From Ideonella sp. A 288 (GTDB lineage Bacteria > Pseudomonadota > Gammaproteobacteria > Burkholderiales > Burkholderiaceae_C): a stretch of 64,000 bases of DNA. How positions within the stretch are numbered: the first letter of the stretch is position 1; each line of letters opens with the position of its first letter. Under the pieces are notes generated by a model that searched no databases, was not told the DNA's origin, and worked only from the letters and a program-made list of their open reading frames with translations. Location: contig NZ_MWLO01000126.1 in NCBI RefSeq assembly GCF_002198735.1, positions 1 through 64,000 of the forward strand, given 5' to 3'. This document shows, one piece after another, positions 2 through 41,000 of this stretch. The position numbers and the translations under genes are program-made.

Positions 2-3000
2 ACCTCGCAGATCGCCGCGCTGGGCACCACGCAGCTGTCCAACCTGACGACCACGCAGCTGACCGCGCTGACCTCGGCGCAGATCGGCAGCCTGGGCACC
101 AGCAGCCTGAATGCGCTGGGCACCACCCAGTTCACCGCGCTGACGACCAGCCAGATCGCCGCGCTGTCGACCACGCAGGTGGCCAACCTGGAAACCAGTG
201 ACCTCTACGCGCTGACCACCAGCCAGATCCGCGGCCTGCAGACGGCCGACCTGGCGGTGCTGGGCACCACGCAGATCGCCGCCTTCGAATCCAGCCAGAT
301 CGCCGCGCTGACCACCGGTCAGCTGCGCTCGCTGTCGACCACCGCGGTGGCCGCCATCGAGACCACCGACCTGGCGGCGCTGGGCACCAACCAGGTGGCC
401 GCACTGACCACCGCGCAACTGGCCGCGCTGACGACCACGCAGCTGTCCAACCTGGGCACCACCCAGGTCGGCGCGCTCACCACCGCGCAGGTGGCCAGCC
501 TGGGCACCAGCAGCCTCAACGCGCTGGGCACCACGCAGTTCTCGGCCCTGACCTCCAGCCAGCTCGCCGGGCTGACCACCACGCAAGTGGCCAACCTGGA
601 AACGGCCGACCTGCACGCCCTGGCCACCAGCCAGATCCGCGGCCTGCAGACGGCCGACCTGGCGGTGCTGGGCACCACGCAGATCGCCAGCCTGGAATCG
701 AGCCAGATCGCCGCGCTGACGACGGGCCAAGTGCGCTCGCTGTCCACCACCGCCATCGCCGCCATCGAGACCACCGACCTGGCCGCCATGGGCACCGTGC
801 AGGTGGCGGCGCTGACGACCGCGCAGCTCAATGCCCTGACCACCACACAGATCGCCAGCCTGGCCACCACGCAGGTGTCGGCCTTCGGCACGGCGCAAGT
901 GGCCAGCCTGGGCACCAGCAGCCTGAACGCGCTGGGCACCACGCAGGTGACCTCGCTGACCACCAGCCAGATCGCCGCGCTGACCACCAGCCAGGTGGCC
1001 AACCTGGAGACCGCCGACCTCTACGCGCTGACCACCAGCCAGATCCGCGGCCTGCAGACCAATGACCTCGCCGCGCTGGGCACGACCCAGATCGCCGCCT
1101 TCGAATCCAGCCAGATCGCCGCGCTGACGACCAGCCAGGTGCGCTCGCTCGGCACCACCGACATCGCCGCCATCGAGACCACCGACCTGGCCGCGATGAC
1201 CACCGTGCAGGTGGCCGCACTGACCACCGCGCAGATCGCCGCGCTGGGCACCACGCAGCTGTCCAACCTGACGACCACGCAGCTCGTGGCACTGACCTCG
1301 GCGCAGGTCGCCAGCCTGGGCACGACCAGCCTGAACGCGCTGGGCACGACGCAGTTCACCGCGTTGACCACCAGCCAGATCGCCGCGCTGACCACCGCCC
1401 AGGTGGCCAACCTCGAAACCAGCGACCTGGTCGCGCTGACCACCACCCAGGTGCGCGGCCTGCAGACCAATGACCTGGCCGTGCTGGGCACGACGCAGAT
1501 CGCCAGCCTGGGCACCAGCCAGATCGCCGCGCTGACCACCGGCCAGCTGCGCTCGCTGGGCACCACCGCCATCGCCGCCATCGAGACCACCGACCTGGCC
1601 GCGATGACCACCGTGCAGATCGCCGCGCTGGCCTCGTCGCAACTGGCCGGTCTGACGACCACGCAGATCGCCAGCCTGTCGACCACGCAGGTGGCCGCGT
1701 TCGGCACGGCGCAGATCGCCAGCCTGGGCACGACCAGCCTGAACGCGCTGGGCACGACGCAGGTCACGGCGCTGACCACCAGCCAGATCGCCGCGCTGAC
1801 CACCACACAGGTCCTCAACCTCGAGACCGCCGACCTCTACGCCCTGGGCACCAGCCAGATCCGCGGCCTGCAGACCAACGACCTCACCGTGCTCGGCACG
1901 ACGCAGATCGCTGCGCTGGAATCCAGCCAGGTCGCCGCGCTGACCACCGGCCAGGTGCGTGCTCTGGGCACCACCGCCATCGCCGCCATCGAGACCACCG
2001 ACCTGGCCGCCATGGGCACGGTGCAGATTGCCGCGCTCACGAGCGCACAGCTCGGCGCACTGGGCACCACGCAGGTGTCCAACCTGGGCACGGCGCAGGT
2101 GGCCGCCCTCGGCACGGCGCAGGTCGCCGTGCTGGGCACCACCCAGCTCAATGCACTGGGCACCACGCAGTTCACCGCACTGACCACCAGCCAGATCGCC
2201 GCGCTGACCACCGCGCAGGCCGCCAACCTGGAGACCAGCGACCTGGTGGCCCTGAGCACGGCGCAGATCCGCGGCCTGCAGACGGCCGACCTTGTGGCAC
2301 TGGGCACCACCCAGATCGCCAGCCTGGGCACGACCCAGATCGCCGCGCTGACGACCAGCCAGGTGCGCGCGCTGGAGACCACCGACGTGGCCGCCATCGA
2401 GACCACCGACCTGGTGGCGCTGACCACCGCGCAGGTGGCGTCGCTGACCTCAGCCCAGCTCAACGCGCTGACGACGACGCAGGTCTCGAACCTGGGCACC
2501 TCGCAACTCGTGGCGCTGGGCACCTCGCAGATCGTCAGCCTGGGCACGAGCAACCTCAACGCCCTGGGCACCACCCAGTTCACCGCGCTGACCACCGGCC
2601 AGCTCGCCGTGCTGACCACCACGCAGGTGGACAACCTCGAGACGGCCGACCTCTACGCGCTGACCACCAGCCAGATCCGCGGCCTGCAGACCGACAGCGT
2701 GGCCGCCCTCGGCACCACGCAGATCGCCAGCCTGGAATCGAGCCAGTTCGCCGCGCTGACCACCGCGCAGGTGCGGGCGCTCGAGACCACCGACGTGGCC
2801 GCCATCGAGACCACCGACCTGGTGGCCCTGACCACGGTGCAGGTGGCCGCGCTGGGCACCTCGCAGATCGGCGCGCTGGGCACCACCCAGCTGTCCAACC
2901 TGACGACCACCCAGCTCGTGGCCCTGACCACCGGCCAGGTGGCCAGCCTGGGCACCAGCAACCTCAACGCCCTGGGCACGACGCAGATCGCGGCGCTGAC

Positions 3001-4357
3001 CACGGCGCAGATCGCGGCGCTGACCACCTCGCAGATCGCCAACCTCGAGACCACCGACCTGTCCACGCTCACCAGCGCCCAGGTCCGTGCGATCCAGACG
3101 GCCGACCTGATGGCGCTGGGCACCACGCAGATCCAGTCGCTGACCACCGCGCAGGTGAGCTCGCTCACCAGCTCGCAGATCCGCGCGCTCGAGACCACCG
3201 ACGTGGCCGCGATCGAGACCACCGACCTGGTGGCCCTGACCACGGCGCAGATGGTGGCCCTGACCTCGGTGCAGCTGGCCGCGCTGGACACGACGCAGAT
3301 CTCGAGCCTGGGCACCACCCAGCTCACGGCGCTGACCACCGCGCAGGTGGCCACGCTGGGCACCAGCAGCCTGGTGGCGCTGACGACGACGCAGATCAGC
3401 GCGTTGACGACGGCCCAGATCGCCTCGCTGACGACCACGCAGTTCTCCAGCATCGAGACCGCCGACATCGTGGCCCTGACCACCGCCCAGGTGCACGCGC
3501 TGACGACCAACGAGATCGTCGCGCTGACCACCGCCCAGGTGGTGGCGCTGGAGACCACCGACATCGCCGCGATGACGATGGAGCAGTACGGCGCCTTCCA
3601 GTCGTCCGACATCGCGGTGATGTCGACCTCGCAGATCAACGCGCTGTTCAGCGTGACGCCGATCGTGCTCGACCTGGACGGCCATGGCATCCAGACCCTG
3701 TCGGCCGCCGACGGCGTGCGCTTCGACCTGGCCGCCACCGGCCAGGCCCACCAGGTGGGCTGGGTCGCCGGCAACGACGGCCTGCTGGTGATGGACCGCA
3801 ATGGCAACGGCACCATCGACGACGGCCGCGAACTCTTCGGCATGGCCACGCCCGATGCCAACGGCCACCGGTCCGGCAACGGCTACGCCGCGATGGCCGG
3901 CGAGGACAGCAACCGCGACGGCCTGCTCAGTGCCGCCGACGCGCGCTTCGCCGACCTGAAGCTGTGGGTCGACGCCGACCACGACGGCCAGACCGACGCC
4001 GGCGAACTGAAGGGCCTGGCCGAGCACGGCATCGTCTCGCTCGACCTGAATGCCGTCGCCGGCACCCAGGTCGACCACGGCAACCTGATCGGCCTGGTCT
4101 CCGGCTACACCACCGCCGACGGCCAGCAGCACGAGATGGCCGACGTGTGGTTCAGCCGCGCCGCACCGCCGGCAGAGGCTGCGCCGCCGGCCCTGGGCGA
4201 ACTGCTCTCGGCCCCGGCCGCCGAACTGCCCGCCCTGGCCGAACCGCCGGCCGCAGCCAGCGCCCCGCCGACGCCGCCGCCGATCGAGCACGTGCTGCCG
4301 GTGATGCCGTACCGGCGGCCGGACGACGACGAGCACCGACAGCTGCCGCTGCTCTGA
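2..4357 (+). CDS. Giant octapeptide-repeat secreted-type protein, 3' part (5' end outside window)
   Basis: The frame is open from base 2, so only the last ~1451 residues are seen; an internal GTG at 179 is not a real start. Nearly all of it is an octapeptide L-x-T-x-Q-[IVL]-x-[AS], with Asp replacing Gln at fixed places (LETADL, LQTADL, IETTDL). Repeats stop near 3643. A C-terminal domain opens with PIVLDLDGHGI and carries three EF-hand-like Asp loops at 3794-3832, 3905-3940 and 3971-4006, then a Pro/Ala-rich tail. This PIVLDLDG/Asp-loop domain is common in RTX-type proteins secreted by type I systems. No GGxGxD nonapeptides occur in the visible part. An LapB-like ABC transporter, HlyD adaptor and TolC homologue lie 16-29 kb away. 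Role as adhesin, surface fibre or S-layer-like protein is inference. Confidence 0.8.
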   Translation, partial: TSQIAALGTTQLSNLTTTQLTALTSAQIGSLGTSSLNALGTTQFTALTTSQIAALSTTQVANLETSDLYALTTSQIRGLQTADLAVLGTTQIAAFESSQIAALTTGQLRSLSTTAVAAIETTDLAALGTNQVAALTTAQLAALTTTQLSNLGTTQVGALTTAQVASLGTSSLNALGTTQFSALTSSQLAGLTTTQVANLETADLHALATSQIRGLQTADLAVLGTTQIASLESSQIAALTTGQVRSLSTTAIAAIETTDLAAMGTVQVAALTTAQLNALTTTQIASLATTQVSAFGTAQVASLGTSSLNALGTTQVTSLTTSQIAALTTSQVANLETADLYALTTSQIRGLQTNDLAALGTTQIAAFESSQIAALTTSQVRSLGTTDIAAIETTDLAAMTTVQVAALTTAQIAALGTTQLSNLTTTQLVALTSAQVASLGTTSLNALGTTQFTALTTSQIAALTTAQVANLETSDLVALTTTQVRGLQTNDLAVLGTTQIASLGTSQIAALTTGQLRSLGTTAIAAIETTDLAAMTTVQIAALASSQLAGLTTTQIASLSTTQVAAFGTAQIASLGTTSLNALGTTQVTALTTSQIAALTTTQVLNLETADLYALGTSQIRGLQTNDLTVLGTTQIAALESSQVAALTTGQVRALGTTAIAAIETTDLAAMGTVQIAALTSAQLGALGTTQVSNLGTAQVAALGTAQVAVLGTTQLNALGTTQFTALTTSQIAALTTAQAANLETSDLVALSTAQIRGLQTADLVALGTTQIASLGTTQIAALTTSQVRALETTDVAAIETTDLVALTTAQVASLTSAQLNALTTTQVSNLGTSQLVALGTSQIVSLGTSNLNALGTTQFTALTTGQLAVLTTTQVDNLETADLYALTTSQIRGLQTDSVAALGTTQIASLESSQFAALTTAQVRALETTDVAAIETTDLVALTTVQVAALGTSQIGALGTTQLSNLTTTQLVALTTGQVASLGTSNLNALGTTQIAALTTAQIAALTTSQIANLETTDLSTLTSAQVRAIQTADLMALGTTQIQSLTTAQVSSLTSSQIRALETTDVAAIETTDLVALTTAQMVALTSVQLAALDTTQISSLGTTQLTALTTAQVATLGTSSLVALTTTQISALTTAQIASLTTTQFSSIETADIVALTTAQVHALTTNEIVALTTAQVVALETTDIAAMTMEQYGAFQSSDIAVMSTSQINALFSVTPIVLDLDGHGIQTLSAADGVRFDLAATGQAHQVGWVAGNDGLLVMDRNGNGTIDDGRELFGMATPDANGHRSGNGYAAMAGEDSNRDGLLSAADARFADLKLWVDADHDGQTDAGELKGLAEHGIVSLDLNAVAGTQVDHGNLIGLVSGYTTADGQQHEMADVWFSRAAPPAEAAPPALGELLSAPAAELPALAEPPAAASAPPTPPPIEHVLPVMPYRRPDDDEHRQLPLL
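188..3451 (+). repeat. Eight tandem copies of an exact 408-bp supra-repeat (17 octapeptides each)
   Basis: The LET/IET codon triplet that opens each unit falls at 188, 596, 1004, 1412, 1820, 2228, 2636, 3044 and 3452, always 408 bp apart, so each unit is 136 residues or 17 octapeptides. Position-specific variants recur in every unit: octad 1 LETxDL, octad 3 LQTxDL, octad 8 IETTDL, octad 14 LGTSxL. Bases 2-187 are the tail of one more unit upstream, and 3452-3643 is a partial last unit of eight more diverged octads. No indel breaks the register across 3.2 kb. Confidence 0.95.
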
Positions 4358-4588: not shown

Positions 4589-5815
4589 ATGCCCGCCTCA
4601 CCCACCCCGCCGCTGCCCGTGCCGGCCGCGCCCGACGCCCTGCAGCGTGCGCTGCTGGCCAGCTGCCGCGACGTGTTCGAGCGCTACGTGGCCGGCGAGC
4701 GGCAGGCCCTGGCCCAGGTGGGCATGGCAGCCCATGGCACGGCCCACCATGAGGCCCGGCTCGACCACCTGGCCATCCGCGCCCAGCGCGCCCTGCACGC
4801 GATGCGCCAGTGGCAGCGCCACGGCCGCGCGCTGTACGTCGGCCGCTACCTGCATTCCGGCGACATCGCCGCGCACTTCGCGCCGCGCTTCCCGGTGCAC
4901 GCGCTCGACCTGCAGCAGGTGCCCGACGAGGCCGACTTCGGGGCGCTGTGCGAGCGCCTGCGCGGCGCCGCGGTCATCGTCAACAACAACGACCTGGGCC
5001 ACCTGCAGCTGCTGCAGCGCCTGTACCTGAGCTGCCCCGACACGCTGTTCATCGCCTGCCTGTACGACAACCACCACACGCTCGAGCTCAGCGCCACCAT
5101 CAGCCTGTGCGCCGACCTGGTGTTCCCGGCGCACTTCGACTACCTGGCGGTGCTCAACCGCTACTGCCCCTTCGTCTGCGGGCCGCTGCCCGCGTCGACC
5201 ATGCAGTGGTCACGCGCCGACGCGCAGCGGCTCGAGCCGCTGCTGTACACCACCGAGCGCACGGTGGCGCTGTCCGGCGGCTTCACGCACTACCCGCAGT
5301 TCCCGTTCCGCAACGGCATCGTGCGCCGCGTGATGGCGCAGCCCGTGGGCGCGTCGCTGGAGCTGCCCGGCCAGGGCGGCGGCGACCACCACACCCGCCG
5401 CAGCGCCGACGACAACTGGCGCGTCTGGGCGCAGTCGAAGGTGAACCTGATGGTGCCGACGATGACCGACCTGCCGCACCGCTTCTTCGACGCGCTGCTC
5501 ACCGGCAACGTGGTGCTGGCGCCGCGCTGGATCCAGCCCTTCTTCGCGCAGTTCGACTTCTCGGCCTTCGAGCGGCCGCCGGTGGTGTGGTTCGACCACG
5601 CCGACCTGCCCGACATGGCCCCTCGCGTGGCCGAGGCCGTGGCGCTGTTCGACGCCGAAGGCCACGCCGGCATCGCCATGCGCCACCGCTGGGTGCGCGA
5701 CCACCACCTGCTCGAGCACCGGCTCGAGCGCATGCTCGACGAGGCGCAGGCGCTGGTGCGCGGCCGCGCGGCGACGGGCCCGTCCACCGAACTCATCGCA
5801 GGAGTTGCCGCATGA
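4589..5815 (+). CDS. Putative glycosyltransferase, first gene of the glycan operon
   Basis: 408 residues, no signal peptide or membrane segment. The C-terminal third contains a block ([11 protein letters not shown]...[20 protein letters not shown]) resembling the donor-binding region of GT-B/CgeB-type glycosyltransferases, where a Lys-x-x-Leu-Asn stretch is followed by R.fEAla.G. The N-terminal half is not recognised. The stop overlaps the next start (ATGA at 5812-5815), so it is translationally coupled to rfbF. A hairpin isolates it from the upstream repeat gene. A surface-glycan role is inferred from neighbours; the glycosyltransferase call rests on a weak fold-level match. Confidence 0.55.
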
Positions 5816-6582
5816 AAGCCGTCATCCTGGCCGGGGGCCTGGGCACCCGCATCAGCGAGGAGACCTCGCTCAAGCCCAAGCCCATGGTCACCATCGGCGG
5901 CAAGCCGATCCTGTGGCACATCATGAAGGGCTACTCGGCCCACGGCGTCAACGACTTCGTGATCTGCTGCGGCTACAAGGGCTACCTGATCAAGGAGTAC
6001 TTCTCCAACTACTTCCTGCACACGTCGGACGTCACCTTCGACATGCAGCGCAACCAGATGGAGGTGCACTGCCGCCACGCCGAGCCCTGGCGCGTGACAC
6101 TGGTCGACACCGGCGACGAGACGCTCACCGGTGGCCGCCTGAAGCGCGTGCGCCAGTACGTCGACGAGGAGCACGCCTTCTGCTTCACCTACGGCGACGG
6201 CGTCAGCAACGTCGACATCGGCGCGCTGATCCAGTTCCACCACCGCCACGGCAAGCAGGCCACGCTCACCGCCATCCAGCCGCCCGGCCGCTTCGGCGTG
6301 CTCGACCTGCAGGGCGAGCGCATCGCCGGCTTCAAGGAGAAGCCGCAGGGCGACGGCGCCTGGATCAACGGCGGCTTCTTCGTGCTGTCGCCGCAGGTCA
6401 TCGACACCATCGACGGCGACCACACCACCTGGGAGAAGGAACCGATGGAACGCCTGGCGCGCGACGGCCAGTTGCAGGCCTATGTGCACGACGGCTTCTG
6501 GCAGCCGATGGACACGCTGCGCGACCGCAACCTGCTGGAGGACCTCTGGCGCAGCGGCACCGCCCCGTGGAGGCAATGGTGA
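5812..6582 (+). CDS. rfbF: Glucose-1-phosphate cytidylyltransferase
   Basis: 256 residues. It makes CDP-glucose from CTP and glucose-1-phosphate in the cytoplasm, the entry step to CDP-linked 6-deoxyhexoses. The N-terminus has the nucleotidyltransferase signature [12 protein letters not shown] with KPKPM, and the body carries family features [32 protein letters not shown] and the C-terminal WQPMDTLRD. Length is normal for RfbF. The start is the ATG of the ATGA overlap, with GGAG 8 bp before it. It overlaps rfbG by 7 nt. Confidence 0.95.
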
Positions 6583-7748
6583 GCGCGGCCCGCGAGGCCG
6601 CGCCGCCGGCGGCACCCGGCGCCGGGGCGCCGCACACCGCCTTCGGCGGCGCCTTCGCCGGCAAGCGGGTGCTCATCACCGGCCACACCGGCTTCAAGGG
6701 CGCGTGGCTCGGCGCCTGGCTGCGCCGGCTGGGCGCTCATGTCTCGGGCTATGCCATCGACGTGCCGACCACGCCCTCGCTGTTCGACACGCTGGGCGGT
6801 GGGGCCTCGATCGACCACCACCTGGGCGACGTGCGCGACGCGGCGGCCGTCGAGCGGGTGCTGCGGCGCGTGCGGCCCGACTATGTCTTCCACCTGGCCG
6901 CGCAGGCCATCGTGTCGACCTCGTACGACGACCCGCTGGCCACGCTGTCGACCAACGTGATGGGCACGGCCACCGTGCTCGACGCGCTGCGCCGCATCGG
7001 CCACCGCTGCACCGCCGTGGTCATCACCTCCGACAAGTGCTACGAGAACGTCGAGTGGGTGTACGGCTACCGCGAGACCGACGCGATGGGCGGCAAGGAC
7101 ATCTACAGCGCCAGCAAGGGTGCCGCCGAGCATGTGTTCCACGCCTTCCAGCGCTCGTTCTTCGCCGATGTCGATGGCCCGGTGCGGCTGGCCAGCGCCC
7201 GCGCCGGCAACGTCATCGGCGGCGGCGACTGGGCGCGCGACCGCATCGTCGTCGACTGCATGGTGCAGTGGGCCGAGGGCCGACCGGTGGAAATCCGCAG
7301 CCCGCGCGCCACCCGCCCCTGGCAGCACGTGCTGGAGCCGCTGTCGGGCTACCTGGCGCTGGCCGCGCGGCTGCAGGGCGACCCCGCGCTGCACGGCGAA
7401 TCCTTCAACTTCGGCCCCAACGCCGAGCAGAACCGCAGCGTGCTCGAACTGCTGCAGGACCTGGGCCGCTGCTGGGGCCATGACGACCCGTCGTCGCTCT
7501 ATACCGTCACCGAGGACCGGCCGTTCAACGAGGCCGGGCTGCTCAAGCTCAACTGCGACAAGGCGCTGGCCCAGTTGCGCTGGCAGGCCACGCTGCGCTA
7601 CGACGAGTGCGTGCGACTGGTTGGCGATTGGTACCACGCCTACTACCGCGGCCCGCGCGGCACCGACATGGCCGCGCTCACCGCGCAGCACATCGCGCGC
7701 TACGAGGCGCTGGCCGCCGAGCGCGGGCTGGCCTGGGCCGCGCGATGA
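6576..7748 (+). CDS. rfbG: CDP-glucose 4,6-dehydratase
   Basis: 390 residues, extended SDR family. It converts CDP-glucose to CDP-4-keto-6-deoxyglucose. The dinucleotide motif is [11 protein letters not shown] (near residue 31), then [12 protein letters not shown], and the catalytic Ser/Tyr/Lys region reads ITSDKCYEN and YSASKGAAE. The [10 protein letters not shown] segment is typical of RfbG. The N-terminus has an Ala/Pro-rich extension of about 25 residues before the fold. It sits between rfbF (7-nt overlap) and a cupin gene (ATGA overlap), so it is part of a coupled operon. Confidence 0.93.
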
Positions 7749-8197
7749 GTTCCCTGCCCGTGGCCGGCACCCTGCCCGCGGGCGTCGTGCTCACGCCGCT
7801 GCGCCGCATCGCCCACCCGCTGGGCGACGTGGTGCACGGCATGAAGGCCGGCGACGACGGCTTCGCCGGCTTCGGCGAGGCCTACTTCAGCCACGTGCTC
7901 GGCGGCGCAACCAAGGGCTGGAAGCGCCACCGCCGCATGGTGCTGAACCTGCTGGTGCCCGCCGGCACGGTCGATTTCCACCTGCACGACGAGGCCGGCG
8001 GCCACGGCGCCACCGTGCGCATCGACGCGCAGTCACCGGCCCGCCTGACCGTGCCGCCGGGCCTGTGGATGGCCTTCTCGGCCGTCGGCGGTGCGCCGGC
8101 CCTGGTGCTGAACCTGGCCAGCCTGCCGCACGACCCGGCCGAGGCCGACACGGCGCCGCTCGAGCGCTTCGCGCGCGTGCCCTGGGAGATGCCATGA
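7745..8197 (+). CDS. Cupin-type sugar epimerase-like protein (RmlC/WxcM-like)
   Basis: 150 residues, overlapping rfbG and the next gene by 4 nt each. The pattern is that of short dTDP-4-dehydrorhamnose 3,5-epimerase-related proteins: VVHGMKAGDDGFAGFGEAYFS at the front, KGWKRHRRM and LTVPPGLWMAFSA later. In RmlC the catalytic His lies in an equivalent strand; here H-R-R follows KGWK. Between a 4,6-dehydratase and a reductase it could epimerise a CDP-4-keto-6-deoxy sugar. Substrate is inference from gene order. Confidence 0.7.
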   Translation: MSSLPVAGTLPAGVVLTPLRRIAHPLGDVVHGMKAGDDGFAGFGEAYFSHVLGGATKGWKRHRRMVLNLLVPAGTVDFHLHDEAGGHGATVRIDAQSPARLTVPPGLWMAFSAVGGAPALVLNLASLPHDPAEADTAPLERFARVPWEMP

Positions 8198-9039
8198 AGA
8201 TCTGGCTCACCGGCGCCAACGGCCTGCTGGGCACCGCCGTGCGCGAGGCCGCACTGAAGGCCGGCCACGACTGCGTGCCGCTGTCGCGCGACGGACTGCT
8301 GGTGCCCGGCGCCCCGCTGCCGCTGGCCCCCGGCGACGTGCTGGTGCACGCCGCCGCCAACACCGACGTCGAGGCCTGCGAGCGCGAGCCCGCCGCCTGC
8401 TGGCGCGACAACGTGCTGCTGAGCGAGGCGCTGGCCCGCCGCGTGGCCCTGGTCGACGCCCGCATGGCCTACATCTCCAGCACCGGGGTCTACGGCAGCG
8501 CCAAGGCGACGCCCTGGCACGAATTCGACGCGGCCGACCCGGCCACGGTGCACCACCGCAGCAAGCTGCTGGCCGAAAGCGCCGTGATGCGGCACTGCCC
8601 CGACGCGCTGATCGTGCGCACCGGCTGGCTCTACGGCGGCCGCGCCGACAACGCGAAGAACTTCGTCGCCCGCCGCATCGACGAGGCGCGCGCCGCCACC
8701 GGCGGGCGCATCGCCTCCAACCCGCGGCAGCGCGGCAACCCCAGCGCCGCCACCGACGTGGCCGAGCGGCTGCTGCTGTTGCTGGCGGCGCGGCACACCG
8801 GCGTGTTCAACACGGTGGCCCGCGGCCACGCCAGCCGGCTGGAGTATGTGGCCGAGATCGTGCGCCTGGCCGGCCTGCCGGTGGCGGTGGAGCCGGTCGA
8901 CCCGTCCCACTTCAAGCGCCTGGCGCCGGTGTCCGACAACGAGATGGCCGACAACCTGCGCTCGCGCCTGCTCGGCCTGCCCGAGATGCCCGACTGGCGC
9001 GACAGCCTGGCGCGCTACGTCGCCACGCTGCCGAGCTGA
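8194..9039 (+). CDS. RmlD-like nucleotide-sugar 4-ketoreductase
   Basis: 281 residues, extended SDR of the dTDP-4-dehydrorhamnose reductase family. GANGLLGTA near residue 7 binds NAD(P)H; VHAAANTDVEACE is typical of RmlD; the Thr/Tyr/Lys site reads SSTGVYG and HHRSKLLAE, so the Tyr of the usual YxxxK is His-shifted here and should be checked. RTGWLYGG is a strong RmlD signature. The start overlaps the previous stop. It probably reduces the keto sugar made by RfbG and the cupin protein. Confidence 0.8.
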   Translation: MKIWLTGANGLLGTAVREAALKAGHDCVPLSRDGLLVPGAPLPLAPGDVLVHAAANTDVEACEREPAACWRDNVLLSEALARRVALVDARMAYISSTGVYGSAKATPWHEFDAADPATVHHRSKLLAESAVMRHCPDALIVRTGWLYGGRADNAKNFVARRIDEARAATGGRIASNPRQRGNPSAATDVAERLLLLLAARHTGVFNTVARGHASRLEYVAEIVRLAGLPVAVEPVDPSHFKRLAPVSDNEMADNLRSRLLGLPEMPDWRDSLARYVATLPS

Positions 9040-9053
9040 GCGCGGCCCGCCCG

Positions 9054-10319
9054 ATGGCCGACGAACCGATCGACGTGATGGTGCTGGGCGGCGGCATCGC
9101 CGGCCTGGGCGCCGCCTGGCGCGCGCGAGAGCTGGGCCGCAGCGCGGTGGTGTACGAGGCCCGCGAACGCGCCGGCGGCCTGCTCGACCACTTCACGGTG
9201 GACGGCTTCCGCTTCGACCAGGCGGTGCACCTGAGCTTCGCCACCGAGCCGCGGGTGCGCGAGCTGTTCGACCGCACGCCGCACCACACCCACCCGTCCG
9301 ATTCGCGCTGCTTCGAGACCGACCGCTGGCTCAAGCACCCGGTGCAGAACAACCTGTTCCCGCTGGCCGCGGCCGACAAGGTGGCGCTGCTGAAATCCTT
9401 CCTGGCGCGCCCCGACGCACCGGCCGGCGACGACTACGAGTCCTGGCTGCGCCACCAGTACGGCGACGCCATCGCCGAGCGCTACCCGCTGCGCTACACC
9501 CGCAAGTACTGGGACACGCCGGCCGCACAGCTGTCCACCGCCTGGGTGGGCAACCGCATGCGCCGCGCCGAGCTCGACGAGGTGCTGCTGGGCCTGGTCA
9601 CCGACGAGACGCCCAACACCTACTACACGAAGGAGATGCGGTACCCCAAGGCAGGCGGCTTCCGCGCCTTCATCGACCCGCTGATCGCCGACACCGAGCT
9701 GCGCACTGGCCACCGCGTCACCGCCATCGACACGGCGGCACGCACCGTGTGCTTCAACGGCGGCGCGCCGGTGGCCTACCGGCAGCTCGTCTCCAGCCTG
9801 CCTCTGCCGCTGCTGGCCACGCTGTGCACCGACATGCCCGCACCGGTGCGGGCCCATGCCCGGCAACTGGTGGCCACCTCGATCGATCTGGTGTCGGTGG
9901 GTTTCGACAAGCCGCTGGTCTCCGACCTGTGGTTCTACCTCTACGACGAATCCATCTGGGCCAGCCGCGGCTACTCGCCGTCGGTGAAGTCGCCCGACGC
10001 CGCACCGCCTGGCTGCAGTTCGCTGCAGTTCGAGGCCTACAGCCGCGGCCTGCTGTCGCGCTTCGAGCCCGAGGCGCTGAAGGCCAACACCGTGCAGGCA
10101 CTGCGCACGCTGGGCATCGCCCGGCCCGAGGACATCGTCGTGCTGCACCACTGCCGGCTGCCCTGGGGCAACGTCGTGTTCGACCAGGGCATGGAAACCC
10201 ACCGCGACGCCGTGCGCGGCTGGCTGGCCGACCAGGGCGTGCGCACCTGCGGCCGCTTCGGCGAGTGGGACTACCTGTGGAGCCACCAGAGCCTGCTCAG
10301 CGGCTGGAACGCGCTGTAG
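9054..10319 (+). CDS. FAD-dependent amine-oxidase/UDP-galactopyranose-mutase-like oxidoreductase
   Basis: 421 residues. The N-terminal Rossmann motif GGGIAGLGAAW (residues 11-21) and the following VYEARERAGGLLDHF match the NAD(P)-binding-8/protoporphyrinogen-oxidase-like group; C-terminal GRFGEWDYLWSHQSLLSG lies where these proteins close over FAD. Members within O-antigen loci act on sugars or lipid-linked intermediates, but the substrate cannot be read from sequence. It is 14 bp downstream of the RmlD-like gene and is the last gene before a new promoter-like element. Confidence 0.75.
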   Translation: MADEPIDVMVLGGGIAGLGAAWRARELGRSAVVYEARERAGGLLDHFTVDGFRFDQAVHLSFATEPRVRELFDRTPHHTHPSDSRCFETDRWLKHPVQNNLFPLAAADKVALLKSFLARPDAPAGDDYESWLRHQYGDAIAERYPLRYTRKYWDTPAAQLSTAWVGNRMRRAELDEVLLGLVTDETPNTYYTKEMRYPKAGGFRAFIDPLIADTELRTGHRVTAIDTAARTVCFNGGAPVAYRQLVSSLPLPLLATLCTDMPAPVRAHARQLVATSIDLVSVGFDKPLVSDLWFYLYDESIWASRGYSPSVKSPDAAPPGCSSLQFEAYSRGLLSRFEPEALKANTVQALRTLGIARPEDIVVLHHCRLPWGNVVFDQGMETHRDAVRGWLADQGVRTCGRFGEWDYLWSHQSLLSGWNAL

Positions 10320-10334
10320 TCCACGGCGGAACAA

Positions 10335-10389
10335 GGGCCCAAGGGGGGCGCTTTTCCGGCGTCGCCGGCCGCCGCACCCGCCCTAGACT
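10335..10389 (+). promoter_or_regulatory. Candidate FlhDC-class promoter before gene 10396
   Basis: GGGCCC (10335-10340), then CGCTTTTCCGGCG (10350-10362), then a -10-like TAGACT (10384-10389) 31 nt after the TTT. The same arrangement precedes six other units in this window. TAGACT is only 6 nt before the ATG at 10396, so the transcript would be leaderless. The regulator assignment is inference. Confidence 0.6.
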
Positions 10390-10395
10390 GGCCCG

Positions 10396-11247: not shown

Positions 11248-11278
11248 GCGGCAGGCCGCCCCCCGACGAGGACACCGC

Positions 11279-13723: not shown

Positions 13724-13749
13724 GCCAACCTGTTCGAAAGTCCCCCGTC

Positions 13750-14523: not shown

Positions 14524-14589
14524 GCCGGCCTCGGGGGCGGCCCGCTGGCCGGGACGCGGCCGCGGCATCGAACGCCCGGTGCAGCCCCG

Positions 14590-15075: not shown

Positions 15076-15076
15076 G

Positions 15077-16827: not shown

Positions 16828-16857
16828 GGCCTGCTCCGATTCAGGGCTTCGCCAGCC

Positions 16858-18018: not shown

Positions 18019-18028
18019 GGCCGGCCTC

Positions 18029-29649: not shown

Positions 29650-30873
29650 TCAGCGCTCGCGGAACGCTTCCTTCGACTTGAGCACCGGACGCAGCAGGTA
29701 GCTCAGCACCGAGCGCTGGCCGGTGTGGATCTCGGCCTGGCCGGACATGCCCGGCAGCACCGCCAGCGGCCGGCCGCCGGCCTGCAGCGAGGCCGAATCG
29801 GCCTGCACCACCGCGCGGTACCAGGTGGCCTCGGCGGCGCCGCGCTCGGTGTCGCCCAGCACGTCGGGGCTGATGCTGCGGATGGTGCCGTGCAGGCTGC
29901 CGTAGACGGTGGATTCATAGGCCGACAGCTTGATTTCGACGCCCTGCCCCACCTGGATGAAGCCGATGTCGGCCGGGCGGATGCGCGCCTCGACCAGCAC
30001 CCGGTCGCCCAGCGGCACGATCTCCATCACCACCGCGCCGGGCCCGACGACGCCGCCCACGGTGTTGGCCGCGATGCGTTTGACCAGGCCGCGCACCGGC
30101 GACTTCAGCACCGTGTGCTCGACCAGATCACGACGCACCACCATCTGTTCGTCGAGCTGGCTCAGCTCGGTCTGCAGCCGCACCAGTTCGGCACTGGCGT
30201 CCTGGCGGAAGCGGTTGATGCGCTCCTGCGTCTGCAGCTCCAGTTCGTTGAGCTGGCGGCGCACGCGCATCACCTCCACCTCGCTCATCAGGCCCTTGGC
30301 CGACATCGATTCGGCCATCGCCAGCTCGCGCTCGAGCAGGCCCAGGCTGCGACGGTTCATCGCCACCGCCTCCTGCAGCGCGCGGGCCCGTGCCTGGTAG
30401 GACTCTGTCTCGCCGGCCACCACTGCCGAGGCGCCCTTGAGCGCCGGGCCGAACACCAGCGGGCGGCCGGTGGCTTCGGCCTGCAACCGCGCGATCGCGC
30501 CGCGCAGGGCCATGCGCTTGGCCTGGCCTTCGTTCTGCTGCGCCTCCGCCCGCGTCGGGTCCAGCAGCGCCAGCGGCTGGCCGGCCTCGACGGCCTGGCC
30601 CTCGCGCACCATCAGCTCGCGCAGCAGCCCGCCTTCCAGGCTGGCGATGACCTGCTCGCGGCCGTCGGGCACCACGCGCGCATCGGCGCGGCTGACCATG
30701 TCCACCTGCGCCACCGAGGCCCAGCCGATGCCCGACACCAGCAGCGCCAGCATCAGGTAGATGGCCCAGGACGCGCCGGGCGTGCCCTCGACCTGGCGCG
30801 CGGCCTGCACCGCGTCGACGAACACGAGGTCGCTGCGCCGCAGCGTCGCGTCCTTGGGGGTGAACCAGGCCAT
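29650..30873 (-). CDS. HlyD-family type I secretion adaptor (LapC-like)
   Basis: 407 residues, one N-terminal membrane helix (WAIYLMLALLVSGIGWASVA, residues ~39-58) and a large periplasmic part. It bridges the ABC transporter and TolC protein. A lipoyl-like half reads DGREQVIASLEGGLLRELMV and VEAGQPLALLDPTRAE, then a long coiled-coil, then VKSPVRGLVKRIAANTVGGVV and the beta-barrel end with GYIQVGQGVEIKLSAY-like sequence. Length fits HlyD/LapC. It is 16 bp after the ABC gene, last in that operon. Confidence 0.9.
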   Translation of the reverse strand: MAWFTPKDATLRRSDLVFVDAVQAARQVEGTPGASWAIYLMLALLVSGIGWASVAQVDMVSRADARVVPDGREQVIASLEGGLLRELMVREGQAVEAGQPLALLDPTRAEAQQNEGQAKRMALRGAIARLQAEATGRPLVFGPALKGASAVVAGETESYQARARALQEAVAMNRRSLGLLERELAMAESMSAKGLMSEVEVMRVRRQLNELELQTQERINRFRQDASAELVRLQTELSQLDEQMVVRRDLVEHTVLKSPVRGLVKRIAANTVGGVVGPGAVVMEIVPLGDRVLVEARIRPADIGFIQVGQGVEIKLSAYESTVYGSLHGTIRSISPDVLGDTERGAAEATWYRAVVQADSASLQAGGRPLAVLPGMSGQAEIHTGQRSVLSYLLRPVLKSKEAFRER

Positions 30874-30889
30874 CGCGGGGTCGGGCGCG

Positions 30890-33079
30890 CTAGGCGACCG
30901 CCTCCGGGCTGGTGGTGGCCGACGGGACGGCCGCCGCGCCGGGCGGTGGCGGGCGCTGGCCCGACAGCGCCGCCAGCACCACGGCCTTGGGGCCGTCGAG
31001 CACGACGCGGCCGAGGTCGACCACCAGCACGCGCTGCACCAGTTCCAGCACCGCCGGGCGGTGCGTCACCATCACCAGCGTGCAGTCGCCGCAGGCCGCG
31101 TGCAGCTGGCGCAGGAAGGCGGCCTCCGACTGTGCGTCCATCGAGCTGGTGGGCTCGTCCATCAGGATCACCTGCGGCCGCGTCACCAGGCAGCGCGTCA
31201 GCGCCACCAGCTGGCGCTGGCCGCCGGACAGCAGCGTGCCGGCCTCGCCGACCGGCAGGTCCCAACCCATCGGGTGAGCGTCCACCACCCGGGCCAGGCC
31301 GGTGAGGCGGGCGATCTCGTCGAGCCGGCCCGGGTCGGCCGACGAACGGCCGAGCAGCACGTTGTCGCGCAGCGTGCCGTGGAAGAGGCGCGGGTCCTGC
31401 GCGACGAAACCCACCTTGGCGCGGTAGTCGGCCGGGTCGATCTGGCGCAGGTCGATGCCGTCCACCTCCACGCGGCCGGCGGTGGGCAGGTACAGCCCCG
31501 CCAGCAGGCGCAGCACGGTGGACTTGCCGCTGCCGATGCGGCCCAGGATGGCCACCCGCTCGCCGGGCTCGAAGCGCAGGTTCAGCCCCTGCAGCACCTG
31601 CGGCGCGGCCTTGCCGGCGGGCGACGGATAGGCAAAGCCCAGGTCGTGCAGCGACAGCCGGCCGCGGATGCGCGGCTGCGGCACGTAGTTGCGGGCGGGG
31701 TCGCGTTCAACCGGCTGGGCCATCACGTCGTCGAGCGCCCGCATCGCCGCGCGCGCACCCTGGTAGCGCATGCCCAGGCTCACCAGCATCGACAGCGGCC
31801 CCAGCGCGCGGCCGGCGAACATCACCGCGCCGATCAGCATGCCGCCGGTGATGGCCTTTTCCTGGATCAGGTGCACGCCCCACACCAGCATCAGCAGCGT
31901 GACGATCTGCTGCGACACCGCCGACAGGTTGATCGTCCAGCTGGTGATGCGGCGCGAGCGCAGCGCCGATTCGGCGGCCGCGGCATTGGAGGTCTCGAAG
32001 TGCTGCAGGAAGCGGCCCTGCGCGCCGGCGGCCTTCAGGTCCTCCAGGCCGTCCACCGCCTCGACCAGCACGCCGTGCAGGTCGGCATGCTGGCGCATGT
32101 TGGCGCTCATCGCGCGGCGCAGCGAGCCCTGGATGGCCATGGCCAGCCCCAGCACCAGCGGGATGGTGATCACCAGCACCCAGCCCAGTGGCCCGCCGAT
32201 GACGAAGGTCATCGCCACGAAGACCAGCACGAAAGGCAGGTCGGTGACCGCCGCCAGCGTGGCCGACGAGAAGAACTCGCGCACCGTCTCCACCTGGCCC
32301 AGCACGTGCGCGTAGGCGCCCGACGAGCCGGGCCGGCTTTCCATGCGCACGCCCAGGCTCTGGCGGAACAGCGTGCTGCCCACTAGCAGGTCGGCCTTGC
32401 GGCCGGCCAGGTCGATCAGGTGCGTGCGCAGTTGCCGTGCCGTCAGGTCGAACAGCACCGCCAGCGCGCCCACCGCGGCCAGCGCCCACAGCGTGGTCAT
32501 GGCCTGGTGCGGGATGACCTTGTCGTAGACCACCGCGGTGACGATGCCGGTGACCAGCATCAGCGCATTGCTCAGCAGCGCGGCCAGCAGGGCAGAGCGG
32601 TAGTAGGGCAGGAAGCGCCGCATGGTGCCCCACAGCCAGTGGGCACCGGGTTCGCGCAGGCCATCGCCGTGCGCGCCCTGCGCCACGCGCGGGTGCGCCA
32701 CCAGCAGCTCGCCGCGGCAGCGTGCGACCAGTTCCACCTCGGGCAGACAGCGCTCGATGGCCACCGCGCCGGGCAGCACGATGTCGCACACCGGCACGTC
32801 GCCGTCGCGGCGCCGCGCCACCAGGATGCAGGCCTCGCCCTCGTCGAGCAGCAGCACCGCGGGCAGCAGCAGCGCATGCACCTGGTCGAGCCGCCGCGCC
32901 AGCAGGGCCGATTCGTAGCCGGCGTCGCGCAGCGCACGCACCGCCTGCTCGGGCGTCAGTGCGCCGTCCACCGGCACGTCGGCCAGCAGCGCCTCGACCG
33001 TGCGCTCGCGGCCATGGTGGCGGCTGAGCCAGGCCAGCGCTTGCGCCAGGCTGTCGTGGTCGAGGTTGCGGTCGCTCAT
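30890..33079 (-). CDS. Type I secretion ABC transporter with C39-like N-domain (LapB-like)
   Basis: 729 residues. N-terminal ~130 residues form a C39-like domain without the catalytic Cys (no Cys in the first 40 residues), as in HlyB/LapB, which recognise unprocessed RTX cargo. A six-helix membrane domain follows (~160-440), then the ATPase: Walker A GRIGSGKST, signature LSGGQ, Walker B ILMDEPTSS, switch MVTHR. Domain order and length match LapB-type exporters of large adhesins. Between an O-GlcNAc-transferase-like gene and the HlyD adaptor. Confidence 0.92.
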   Translation of the reverse strand: MSDRNLDHDSLAQALAWLSRHHGRERTVEALLADVPVDGALTPEQAVRALRDAGYESALLARRLDQVHALLLPAVLLLDEGEACILVARRRDGDVPVCDIVLPGAVAIERCLPEVELVARCRGELLVAHPRVAQGAHGDGLREPGAHWLWGTMRRFLPYYRSALLAALLSNALMLVTGIVTAVVYDKVIPHQAMTTLWALAAVGALAVLFDLTARQLRTHLIDLAGRKADLLVGSTLFRQSLGVRMESRPGSSGAYAHVLGQVETVREFFSSATLAAVTDLPFVLVFVAMTFVIGGPLGWVLVITIPLVLGLAMAIQGSLRRAMSANMRQHADLHGVLVEAVDGLEDLKAAGAQGRFLQHFETSNAAAAESALRSRRITSWTINLSAVSQQIVTLLMLVWGVHLIQEKAITGGMLIGAVMFAGRALGPLSMLVSLGMRYQGARAAMRALDDVMAQPVERDPARNYVPQPRIRGRLSLHDLGFAYPSPAGKAAPQVLQGLNLRFEPGERVAILGRIGSGKSTVLRLLAGLYLPTAGRVEVDGIDLRQIDPADYRAKVGFVAQDPRLFHGTLRDNVLLGRSSADPGRLDEIARLTGLARVVDAHPMGWDLPVGEAGTLLSGGQRQLVALTRCLVTRPQVILMDEPTSSMDAQSEAAFLRQLHAACGDCTLVMVTHRPAVLELVQRVLVVDLGRVVLDGPKAVVLAALSGQRPPPPGAAAVPSATTSPEAVA

Positions 33080-33097
33080 CGGGATCCGGAAGGTCGC

Positions 33098-34954
33098 TCA
33101 GTTTGCGCGATGGGCCAGCGCCAGCCGTTCGAACTCGGCCTCGATGTCGCGCACGAGTTGCGGCAGGTCGAACAGCGGCGACTGCCGGCCGTGCTCGGCC
33201 AGGTAGCGCTTGTACGAGGCCACGCGCTGCGGCTGGCGGCCCAGGCGCACGGCCTGGCGCTCGTACTCGTCCTGCGATTCGGTGACGAGGTCGGGCAGGC
33301 CCACCGCGGTGAGCAGGCTGCCGGCCATGCGCGAGATGTAGCTGCGGCCGGCGCGGGTGAGGATGGGCAGGCCCATCCACAGCGCGTCGCTGGCGGTGGT
33401 GCCGGCGTTGAACGGGAAGGTGTCGAGCATCAGGTCGGCCAGCTGGAAGCGAGCCAGGTAGTCGGGCGGCGACACCCGCGGCGCGAACACCAGGCGCTCG
33501 CGCGCCACGCCCTGGGCATCGGCCTCGCGCAGCATGTTCTCGCGGGCGGTGTCGTTGTCGGCCAGCAGCCACAGCACGCTGCCAGGCACCTGGTGCAGCA
33601 CCCGCATCCAGCCCTGGAACACCTCGTGGGTGAACTTGTGGTTGTTGTTGAACGAGCAGTAGACGAAGCCGTCCTCGGGCAGGCCGTTGGCCGCGCGAGT
33701 GGGCATCGGCCCGACGATGCGCTGGCGGTCGCTCACCTGGTAGCAGTGCGGCAGGTGGATCGGCTGTTCGGTGCAGTAGGGCTCCAGCTCGGGCGGCATC
33801 ACGAAGCGGTCGGCCAGGATCCAGTCGACCCCCGGCAGCGCCGAGGTGCCCGGCAGGCCGAGGTAGCTCACCTGCACCGGCGCGGCGCGGTGGCCCAGGA
33901 TGGCCGGTCGCGCGCCGTTGGTCAGGCCCTGCAGGTCGACCAGCACATCGATGCCGGCCTCGGCGATCAGCCTGGCGGCGGTCTCGTCATCGACGCCGGC
34001 CAGGCGCACGTGGTGGTCCACCGCGGCGAGCAGGCGGCGGCGCTGCGGGTCCTGGCCCTCGGGCGCCCAGCAGAAGGCCCAGACCTCGAAGCGGCTGCGG
34101 TCGTGCAGTTCGAACAGCTCGGGCACCAGCAGGCCCACGGCGTGCATGTGCAGGTCGCCCGACAGGTAGCCCACGCGGATGCGGCCGGTGCGCGGCGGCA
34201 TGGCCGCGTGCAGCGGCTCGGCCGGCGGCTTGGGCAGCCGCTCGTGCACGAAGCGCTGCGCGGCCAGCAGCTGCAGCGCCGGGTCGTCGGACAGGCCCAT
34301 CATCGCCAGCAGCGAGGTGCCGGTGAGTTGCATGTTCGGCGTCACCCCCGGCAGCGCCGTATAGGTGGGCCACGCGCACTGCTTCTGGCGCAGGTGCACG
34401 TGGTGCTGAATGACATCGAATTGGCGCGGCTTCAGTGCCAGGCTGGCGGCCAGCGCGGCCTCGGCCTCGGGAAAGCGGCGCAGGGTTTCCTGCAGACGGC
34501 CCAGGTTGTTGAACGCATGCACCTTCAGGTCGGGCGGCGTGGCGGCGTCGGCGGCCACCGCGCGCCATTGGTCGAGCGCCTCCTCGGGCTGGCCGCGCCG
34601 CTCGAGCAGGCTGCCCAGGTTGAGCCGCGCATGCGGGAACGAGGGCTGGGCCTCGATGGCCTGGCGGTAGGCCGCCTCGGCCTCGTCGGCCCGGCCCAGC
34701 GCGCTGAGCAGCGTGCCGCGGTTGAAGCAGGCCACGTGGCGCAGCGGCGAATCGGTGTGCTCGATCCAGGCGCCGTACAGCGCCTCGGCCGCGGCGGTGT
34801 CGCCGCCCTGCTGCAGCCGGTGGGCATGGCCCAGCAGATCGGGCAGCGGCATGGTGCCGCTGCGGGCGTGCACCAGCGCAGGCTGCGGGGGCTGGGCAGG
34901 CTGCGAGGGCTGCGCAGGCTGCGCCGTGGCCGAAGGCAGGGTCGTGACGGGCAT
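33098..34954 (-). CDS. TPR-containing O-GlcNAc-transferase-like protein (SPINDLY family, GT41)
   Basis: 618 residues from ATG 34954. A Gln/Pro-rich N-terminus (QPAQPSQPAQPPQPA) is followed by TPR repeats (residues ~50-200: FNRGTLLSALGRADEAEAAY, LNLGSLLERRGQPEEAL, FNNLGRLQETLRRFPEAEA) and a GT41 catalytic region with VGYLSGDLHMHAVG, DVLVDLQGLT, QVSYLGLPGTSALPGVDWI, FNAGTTASDALWMGLPILT. Such enzymes move a sugar onto Ser/Thr of proteins. A longer in-frame start (35119) is rejected because it would overlap the promoter element at 35012-35078. It shares an operon with the type I exporter (18 bp), so its target may be the cargo. Confidence 0.85.
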   Translation of the reverse strand: MPVTTLPSATAQPAQPSQPAQPPQPALVHARSGTMPLPDLLGHAHRLQQGGDTAAAEALYGAWIEHTDSPLRHVACFNRGTLLSALGRADEAEAAYRQAIEAQPSFPHARLNLGSLLERRGQPEEALDQWRAVAADAATPPDLKVHAFNNLGRLQETLRRFPEAEAALAASLALKPRQFDVIQHHVHLRQKQCAWPTYTALPGVTPNMQLTGTSLLAMMGLSDDPALQLLAAQRFVHERLPKPPAEPLHAAMPPRTGRIRVGYLSGDLHMHAVGLLVPELFELHDRSRFEVWAFCWAPEGQDPQRRRLLAAVDHHVRLAGVDDETAARLIAEAGIDVLVDLQGLTNGARPAILGHRAAPVQVSYLGLPGTSALPGVDWILADRFVMPPELEPYCTEQPIHLPHCYQVSDRQRIVGPMPTRAANGLPEDGFVYCSFNNNHKFTHEVFQGWMRVLHQVPGSVLWLLADNDTARENMLREADAQGVARERLVFAPRVSPPDYLARFQLADLMLDTFPFNAGTTASDALWMGLPILTRAGRSYISRMAGSLLTAVGLPDLVTESQDEYERQAVRLGRQPQRVASYKRYLAEHGRQSPLFDLPQLVRDIEAEFERLALAHRAN

Positions 34955-35011
34955 GGCAGGTTCTCGGCGCCACTGCGGCGCAAGGGCAAGGCGCACGGAG
35001 CGCGAGTGCCC

Positions 35012-35078
35012 ATCGTAGAAGCGGTGGGCGGGCGGAGAACCGGCGCAAAGGGGGGCGAAACGGGCGCTGTTCGGGCCC
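35012..35078 (-). promoter_or_regulatory. Candidate FlhDC-class promoter of the glycosyltransferase-T1SS operon
   Basis: On the - strand: GGGCCCGAACAGCGCC (from 35078), CGTTTCGCCCC, a second TTTGCGCCGG (from 35049), then TACGAT (35017-35012) 32 nt after the second TTT. The first TTT is one helical turn further up, so spacing is less regular than in the other sites. The element also bears on the divergent GNAT gene at 35185 only by proximity. Confidence 0.5.
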
Positions 35079-35184
35079 GGCGGGCGGCACATGGCACGAG
35101 CCGACGCCCGCCTGGCCACCCCCGGCGGTCGGCGGCACGCGAAGGCGCCGCAGAATGGCGACCGCCACCCCGGGAGCCCAGCCC

Positions 35185-38688: not shown

Positions 38689-38702
38689 GGCGCGCGTCTC
38701 AC

Positions 38703-38785
38703 TTGAGTCAACGAAGGGCCGCTCCCGAGTTGACTCAACCCCCTCGGGGGGCGGAGGCGGGGTCTTTGCCGCCGCCTGGGGGCGT
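38703..38785. repeat. Dispersed palindromic intergenic repeat, copy A
   Basis: Arms TTGAGTCAAC (38703-38712) and GTTGACTCAA (38729-38738) are a perfect 10-bp inverted repeat enclosing GGGCCGCTCCC, followed by CCCCCTCGGGGGG and a GC-rich stem (GGCGGAGGCGG...CCGCCGCC). The GGGCCGCTCCC and CCCCCTCGGGGGG blocks recur at 47.0-47.1 kb. It fills the 97-bp gap between DUF1800 and DUF1501 genes and may act as an mRNA hairpin. Confidence 0.7.
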
Positions 38786-40828: not shown

Positions 40829-41000
40829 GGGCCTGCCCTCGTGGTGCGCGGATTGCACGCCATTGTGGCGGCCATCCCCGGGGCGGGGCCAAGCGGCTTT
40901 ACCGTTCGAGAGTGCAGCTTTACGTTCGGCAACGGTGCGTGCGGATGCCAGCGCAACGACCGACCGGGGGCGGACTGGGCGCCCGCCGCCGCGGGGCGGG

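Follow-up and report, generated by a model that had tools for sequence, protein, structure and literature searches.

Why should a protein built from octapeptides repeat itself at every seventeenth octad? The question is raised by a 64,000-nucleotide stretch of DNA from Ideonella sp. A 288 (contig NZ_MWLO01000126.1, positions 1 to 64,000), called the window here, which opens inside a giant threonine-rich gene of the ALTTAQ-repeat family (PF20080). Its octads follow the pattern L-x-T-x-Q-[IVL]-x-A and are ordered into units of 17, that is 408 bp. Our data favour a reading that we hold to be likely: the 17-octad unit would correspond to five turns of the screw into which short helices wind, with about 3.4 octads per turn, in an exported rod that a GT41 glycosyltransferase possibly modifies. 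An earlier sequence-only reading of this DNA knew of no described family with such an order. For the octad this was mistaken, as the family is already known; for the 17-fold order it was not contradicted, as neither this order nor the family-wide 3.4 rule was found described in a literature search by name or motif, in which ALTTAQ, HeliScrew, PF20080 and the octad motifs gave no paper with a relevant title.

The window starts at the first base of its contig (C31), and the giant gene runs in from that edge. A Pfam profile search matched PF20080 on 49 stretches of the window protein (E 4.9e-302, 973.8 bits vs a cut-off of 26.4). The N-terminal part of the gene lies on another contig of the same genome (C63; L009:1-2900, minus strand), divergent from flhB and flhA. 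It begins MASIVLGLTTTQIEG, with octads from the first residues, and a lone N at L009:877, taken as an assembly join, breaks it. The two parts do not meet: L009 ends at unit position 4 and the window begins near position 10-11, and by reading of both ends at least about six octads appear to be absent between them. The visible pieces together make about 2,400 residues. In the window open reading frame (ORF) the octads fill roughly the first 1208 residues, with 30.5% Thr plus Ser, and a composition count found no Lys, Cys, Pro or Trp in this region. Tandem Repeats Finder reported the 408-bp period at 2-3484 (8.5 copies, 80% matches), and the octad parse gave 151 consecutive octads with zero indels. 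The first full unit begins at residue 63 (nucleotide 188) and eight full units run to 3451, so that the period and the eight copies given by the sequence-only reading are borne out. It had placed the array at 188-3643; the partial end near 3643 holds, but the start does not, as the array runs in from the contig edge. Identity between octads is 0.73 at lag 17, 0.74 at lag 34 and 0.71 at lag 51, vs a median of 0.44 over lags. Fixed Asp residues had been claimed for each unit, and this is true of unit positions 1 (LETxDL) and 8 (IETTDL), where Glu and Asp are kept in 8/8 units, and in part of others: position 3 carries Asp at octad residue 5 in seven of eight units and position 7 has Asp in four (units 3, 6, 7 and 8). 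Position 5 has Glu in five of the eight.

PF20080 was found in 19 of 21 genomes of the genus, the window's own included, in 81 of 299 sampled in the family, and in named records of Beta-, Alpha- and Gammaproteobacteria, classes that we take from the genus names. It is also present in metagenome-assembled genomes (MAGs) labelled Acidobacteria, Riflebacteria and Chthoniobacteraceae, labels that can err. Among 14 control genomes a match was seen only in Caulobacter vibrioides, one of the two controls with GT41. The homologue set consisted of 40 stretches from relatives and 64 named loci retrieved via the peptide [IV]AAIETTD. An antisense ORF (L102) was dropped from the 111 that were parsed, which left 110 ORFs, window and L009 included. 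The dominant lag was 17 octads in 38 of them, 27 in 18, 34 in ten, 44 and 24 in seven each, 48 and 10 in six each, 7 in four, 31 and 51 in three each, and 14, 41 and 58 in one each. It differed from a multiple of 3.4 octads by at most 0.15 turn in 105/110 ORFs, where arbitrary lags would give 30%. Five off-grid lags, 5 (L116), 16 (L140), 21 (L157), 25 (L146) and 26 (L151), come from one ORF each, either weakly periodic or with octads skipped or stretched by the parser. The mean lag profile, taken over 101 proteins with a lag range of 60 or more, has peaks at 7, 10, 14, 17, 20, 24, 27, 31, 34, 37, 41, 44, 48, 51, 54 and 58. These are round(3.4k) for k = 2-17, the sole extra being a small peak at 4 (k = 1 gives 3), and the periodogram of the profile has its maximum at 3.40 octads. 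The best period of the single protein fell within 3.30-3.50 in 70 of the 101. Among the other 31, nine at 2.42-2.46, four at 5.4-5.7 and four at 8.3-8.6 are near aliases of 3.4 harmonics; eight were at 8.98 (the scan edge), five at 4.7-4.8 and one at 6.7. The sequence-only reading had named homologues with other unit counts as evidence against a structural cause. Such homologues were found, but the common counts 24, 27, 31 and 44 are near whole turns of one screw and thus support the structural reading.

An inherited unit length alone could mimic such phasing, and the octads were therefore permuted inside the unit, identically in all copies. Sixty-five ORFs passed the strength rule, some in two classes. 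Under this unit-preserving permutation the strongest harmonic was 17/5 = 3.400 in 26 of 32 proteins, 24/7 = 3.429 in four of seven, 27/8 = 3.375 in 8 of 17, 31/9 = 3.444 in both of two and 44/13 = 3.385 in eight of nine. Other harmonics lead in the rest, for example 27/3 in five and 27/11 in three.

Charged residues were followed in proteins with 80 or more octads, eight or more of them marked. For acid at octad position 2 the median vector strength is 0.75 in the 3.30-3.50 band as compared to 0.22 in control bands, and its phasing exceeds 200 random placements in 87 of 98 proteins; for Arg/Lys/His at position 7 the vector strength is 0.63, exceeding random in 69 of 89. A free scan of periods from 2.02 to 12 octads was run with no preset band, 3.30-3.50 being 4.2% of its frequency range. 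The best period fell in that range for acid at position 2 in 77/98 proteins, acid at position 5 in 75/101, any acid in 87/101 and Arg/Lys at position 7 in 53/89, and the median period of acid phasing was 3.39 octads. The misses for position 2 include Sphaerotilus (4.67), an Acidobacteria MAG (5.42), and Azospira together with a Rhodocyclales MAG (2.4-2.5). In 18 proteins hand-chosen to cover five unit lengths, the acid stripe gave a unit-preserving p < 0.05 in 14. A longitudinal stripe of acids in most of the family is thus supported by their placement along the sequence; Arg is phased too, and its offset from the acids varies between proteins. Regular spacing of acids, proposed earlier for the window with a possible role as a ligand or metal ladder, fits most of the family as far as the spacing goes, while in the window itself only acidic octads 1, 8 and 5 fall on the stripe and 3 and 7 are off it. 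The phasing rule holds at the level of the family; the window obeys it chiefly through its unit length, its acids at position 2 (R 0.79) and Arg at position 7 (R 0.76).

AlphaFold2 (AF2) was given three units of the window (1004-2227) together with six shifted window stretches. The best window model has a mean predicted local distance difference test score (pLDDT) of 95.4, a predicted template-modelling score (pTM) of 0.82, and 51 predicted helices for 51 octads with no strand; the remaining models reached pLDDT 94.9, 93.0, 82.0 and 34.6. A homologue with 31-octad units (Siccirubricoccus, L169) gave pLDDT 95.6 in the best case and more than 92 in each of the five models; 62 octads yielded 62 helices, again with no strand. 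Each octad is predicted to form one short helix, and the solenoid of the sequence-only reading lives on in the helical version that it had offered as an alternative. The first Foldseek match was mesothelin for both AF2 models (window model: E 6.5e-4, prob 1.00, but template-modelling score (TM) 0.27). A viral structure library gave two phage proteins at E ~1e-5 and TM 0.15-0.17.

Residues 1220-1383, C-terminal to the octads, match the FrpC self-processing module (SPM) 6sjw with E 1.6e-30. In 54 aligned ORFs most loop D/N/E/G positions and two Trp are kept at 91% or more, and two loop positions, 12 and 112 in segment numbering, are more variable; the loop positions, putative calcium ligands, were mapped onto the FrpC sites by reading of the alignment. 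The junction motif was found in 59/111 ORFs, many ORFs being cut short, and the residue before its Pro is Ser in 31, Thr in 28 (the window among them) and Asp in none. RTX nonapeptides GGxGxDxxx (PF00353) gave no match in the window protein in a Pfam search; they end the Methylomonas protein L163, one of three homologues scanned, instead of the FrpC-like module. A hydrophobic C-terminal pair closes 36 of 54 complete SPM-bearing ORFs (PLI in 20 of them), with an acidic pair shortly ahead of it in 35 of the 36, and the two together may be an export signal. At the N-terminus, MASIVLGLTTTQ, no signal peptide is evident by eye. The HlyD adaptor, the LssB exporter and the TPR-GT41 enzyme are encoded consecutively at 29650-35119, and the LssB-type exporter is the only one of 81 matches in its own genome above the family cut-off. 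When window proteins were used in tblastn against the 104 homologue loci, many of them short, LssB was found in 14, HlyD in 13, GT41 in 21, SPM in 73, flhB in 12 and flhA in 13. Export of the giant protein by the window's type I system is most likely.

The GT41 gene lies about 29 kb from the giant gene in its own genome, and GT41 is present in 26/26 ALTTAQ genomes searched (the own genome and 25 named ones). The 25 were hand-chosen from the 64 named loci for long contigs after the tblastn table, not at random, and 19 of them have GT41 within about 25 kb of an ALTTAQ gene vs 0.75 expected: inside the locus in 13, and on the same contig, 2 to 23 kb away, in six. These 19 include records labelled as several phyla. 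In the other six, GT41 was on other contigs, among the matches listed. The complete genome G152 has three GT41 places, among the matches listed, more than 400 kb from its ALTTAQ genes, and in G275 one of two places, among the matches listed, is about 0.8 Mb away. The family sample has GT41 in 76/81 ALTTAQ genomes vs 108/218 others (Fisher 4e-14, kinship ignored). The linkage is frequent, not universal.

Taken together, the giant protein is most likely a secreted, perhaps glycosylated, surface rod. It would be a very long chain of ALTTAQ repeats with one short predicted helix per octad, successive helices winding into a compact screw in which one turn takes about 3.4 octads (27 residues), or about 106 degrees per octad. 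Because 17 octads would be almost exactly five turns, a residue fixed in the unit would return to the same face of the rod, and one face would bear the acidic octads (ETxD) in most relatives. As faces stay aligned, selection could allow duplications of whole turns: 7 octads for two turns, 10 for three, 17 for five, 24 for seven, 27 for eight, 31 for nine and 44 for thirteen. The rod, which starts with octads and lacks a signal peptide by eye, would leave the cell by type I export and then fold outside in calcium, its C-terminal end bearing an FrpC-related calcium-type module without the cleavage Asp. The TPR-GT41 enzyme may glycosylate many Thr/Ser in the cytoplasm before export, and the rod could serve at the surface or in the matrix as an adhesin or spacer.

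It should be noted here that several points weigh against this reading. The figure of 3.4 octads per turn is drawn from phasing and not from any structure; an ideal-backbone scan permits about 2.3-4.3 octads per turn with either hand, so that 3.4 is allowed, not required, and a period of 3.4 does not lead among the helix lengths of either AF2 model. Of the five window models, one has pLDDT 34.6 and another 82.0. The homologues are related and their counts are not independent, and retrieval of the 64 loci by [IV]AAIETTD favours acidic ETTD octads. Harmonics other than 3.4 lead in 9/17 proteins with 27-octad units, the 3.4 harmonic of acids ranks first in only 12 of the 18 chosen proteins, and the acids' 3.43 harmonic is second or third of twelve in four tested 24-octad proteins. 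In the window, the circular-lag tests are weak (p 0.036 at lag 4, 0.09 at 6, 0.12 at 7, and 0.67-0.89 at lags 1, 2, 3, 5 and 8), and its acid stripe has p = 0.21, though rank 1 of 8. As for export, the type I genes are about 25 kb from the giant gene on the same contig, and the ABC-transporter matches in other loci, with identities of 25-35%, may represent different exporters. Finally, NeuB-type sugar genes and flagellar genes are near, and GT41 could serve flagellin.

This last point can be made into a full alternative, a real possibility although not the one we would choose, in which GT41 and the sugar genes serve flagellin glycosylation, have nothing to do with the ALTTAQ protein, and are linked to it by local synteny. 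The window holds sugar genes at 4589-18048 (GDP-mannose dehydratase/epimerase, RmlD, NeuB, WbqC, methyltransferase), which probably form a nonulosonic-acid cluster for a glycan of the surface or of flagellin. NeuB, WbqC and RmlD share the window with MotA/MotB, the giant gene is divergent from flhB-flhA, and FlmG, which has TPR and a GT-B domain, O-glycosylates flagellin in Caulobacter, in the cytoplasm, according to PMC7591256. On the other hand, GT41 is near the ALTTAQ gene in 19 of the 25 chosen genomes with several phylum labels and accompanies it through the family sample, whereas flhB is near in only 12/104 loci, ten of them from the window's own genus.

It is unlikely, in our view, that the 17-octad order is a mere record of duplication, with an ancestral block length inherited and other lengths made by joins of 7- and 10-octad pieces. 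The commonest top lag is indeed 17, the frequent lengths can be composed from 7 and 10 as block duplication predicts, and the units themselves point to common descent. Mean DNA identity among the eight window units is 78.7% (range 69-84%), and 74.6% is expected when codons are redrawn from the units' own usage with proteins unchanged; this residual synonymous likeness goes with proportions of synonymous (pS) and nonsynonymous (pN) differences of 0.31 and 0.17. Identity declines with distance as a trend only (rho -0.31, p 0.11). The units are, on this comparison, old and diverged, and the repeat that was called exact is exact in length and register but not in sequence. Gene conversion among them is possible, with strong conversion not indicated, and homogenisation, to which the sequence-only reading had ascribed the upkeep of the repeat, is a weak candidate for the main cause of the 408-bp period. 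Duplication alone, however, leaves unexplained why 7, 10, 14, 20, 31, 37, 44, 48 and 54 lie on one real-valued period of 3.4, and in most of the tested proteins, though not in every one, the phasing of octads and acids within the unit stays near 3.4 when judged by unit-preserving permutation.

That the octads form a beta solenoid or a leucine-rich-repeat (LRR)-like coil is very improbable: LRR chains do match weakly (best 5a5c, E 0.00034), as does Pfam LRR_EndoS (E 1.3e-19), which could be because Leu recurs every eight residues, but in the two AF2 models, with pLDDT above 95, every octad is a helix and strands are absent, the best solved-sequence match to the window octads is 9zem HeliScrew4 (E 5.3e-14 in phmmer, 1.5e-17 with a profile), and no LRR stands among the best 50 Foldseek matches listed, which are headed by a short-helix solenoid. 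Octads of the window protein and of scanned homologues also gave Pfam cross-matches to CAAP1, HTH_25 and Phage_TAC_7, which, like LRR_EndoS, were judged to be low-complexity artefacts. Strong but apparently false matches of this kind may mislead the automatic annotation of such giants.

The screw reading leads to a further idea, which is tempting but still tentative. The fractions that approximate 3.39 best are in turn 7/2, 10/3 and 17/5, with 7, 10 and 17 as numerators, and by arithmetic 17 would be the shortest unit that holds a stripe nearly straight. The sequence of the screw may thus read out its own twist, with 7, 10 and 17 as successive best whole-number approximations that keep the chemical stripes straight. 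If this is true, acidic, basic and glycosylated stripes would run straight along rods several thousand residues long and make a linear lattice for calcium, glycans or a surface; the choice of unit would resemble leaf counts in phyllotaxis, and rod length could vary by whole-turn blocks with the faces undisturbed. A twist legible from sequence to about 1% across proteins, and setting the repeat numbers that are retained, would offer a clear example from nature in which structure selects the length of a repeat. The reading yields a sharp number to check, about 106 degrees per octad, and a rule for rods that are long, straight and patterned on their faces. It would also give a widespread giant family its first functional frame, in type I export, an FrpC-like module without the cleavage site and a linked GT41.

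Other observations concern the members and neighbours of the family. In the same genus, seven loci (L071, L072, L075, L076, L078, L079, L082) have ALTTAQ ORFs of 4,137 to more than 6,157 residues beside flhB, some of them cut. Adjacent paired ALTTAQ ORFs occur in L092, L093, L097-L101, L104, L105 (three ORFs), L109, L111, L115, L134, L148 and L151, and differ in length or unit number in several loci. Some octads carry insertions of two or three residues (L090, L091, L094, L095, L104, L105, L163) or of one residue (L112, L122, L146, L153). These recur along the arrays, at lags such as 219, 355, 386 and 574 residues, and for the most part the number of octads still fits the 3.4 grid. In the window, DUF1501 and DUF1800 genes adjoin at 37303-41056, between the exporter/GT41 block and motA/motB. 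An ORF at 4589-5815 has no Pfam match, and tblastn found its relatives in three ALTTAQ loci (L113, L125, L137).

Table 1. Coordinates in the window of the giant gene, its units and domains, and the putative partner genes.
Feature	Coordinates	Strand	Remark
ALTTAQ-repeat protein, C-terminal 1451 residues	1..4357	+	ORF 2-4357, open at contig start, stop 4355-4357; PF20080
17-octad unit 1	188..595	+	octad parse
17-octad unit 2	596..1003	+	octad parse
17-octad unit 3, first of three modelled (1004-2227)	1004..1411	+	octad parse
17-octad unit 4	1412..1819	+	octad parse
17-octad unit 5	1820..2227	+	octad parse
17-octad unit 6	2228..2635	+	octad parse
17-octad unit 7	2636..3043	+	octad parse
17-octad unit 8	3044..3451	+	octad parse
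Partial ninth unit, degenerates towards C-terminal junction	3452..3643	+	octad parse
FrpC-like self-processing-module domain, residues 1220-1383	3659..4150	+	Thr1219, not Asp, stands before it
Ala/Pro-rich tail ending DDDEHRQLPLL, candidate C-terminal secretion signal	4151..4354	+	
HlyD-type adaptor, type I exporter, putative partner	29650..30873	-	TIGR01843, 310.5 bits vs cut-off 208.65
LssB-type type I ABC exporter, putative partner	30890..33079	-	TIGR03375
TPR + GT41 glycosyltransferase, putative modifier	33098..35119	-	PF13844, E 2.1e-69

Several known systems can be set beside this locus. The Pfam ALTTAQ repeat has the same octad as the window protein; its model spans 38 positions, and the name of the entry says nothing of a 17-octad order, a turn number or a function. 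Among solved sequences, the closest to the window octads is the 120-residue PDB entry 9zem, HeliScrew4, with octads of the L-T-P-E-Q-I-A-A type. It seems to be a short made or excised protein, and its name suggests a helical screw. Mesothelin, with stereocilin and otoancorin, is a solenoid of short helices like the predicted ALTTAQ models, and a right-handed one according to PMC10035497. Its repeats have two or three helices each in the same source, whereas the ALTTAQ models have one per octad, and global agreement is low (query TM 0.12-0.28, root-mean-square deviation 6.8-12.1 A).

For the glycosyltransferase, the window enzyme has TPR followed by a GT41 domain, an FlmG-like layout. In FlmG (PMC7591256) and HMW1C (PMC3012730) a dedicated soluble enzyme glycosylates a secreted protein, as is proposed here for GT41; FlmG acts on flagellin and HMW1C on a two-partner-secreted adhesin, neither of them an ALTTAQ rod. 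The cytoplasmic O-glycosylation of a secreted protein by the TPR-bearing FlmG would, by analogy, be a precedent for the role of GT41. In FrpC, according to PMC7078468, calcium makes the module cut between Asp414 and Pro415, and the Asp is then joined to Lys. The ALTTAQ C-terminus keeps both Trp and most calcium-loop residues of that module (6sjw, 6sjx; sites from the same source), while Asp414-Pro415 is Ser-Pro or Thr-Pro in 59/59 ORFs with the junction, and the repeat region of the window protein holds no Lys. Since the scissile Asp is replaced throughout, clip-and-link through an Asp anhydride is not expected, and the family appears to have retained the calcium fold of FrpC and lost its clip-and-link chemistry.

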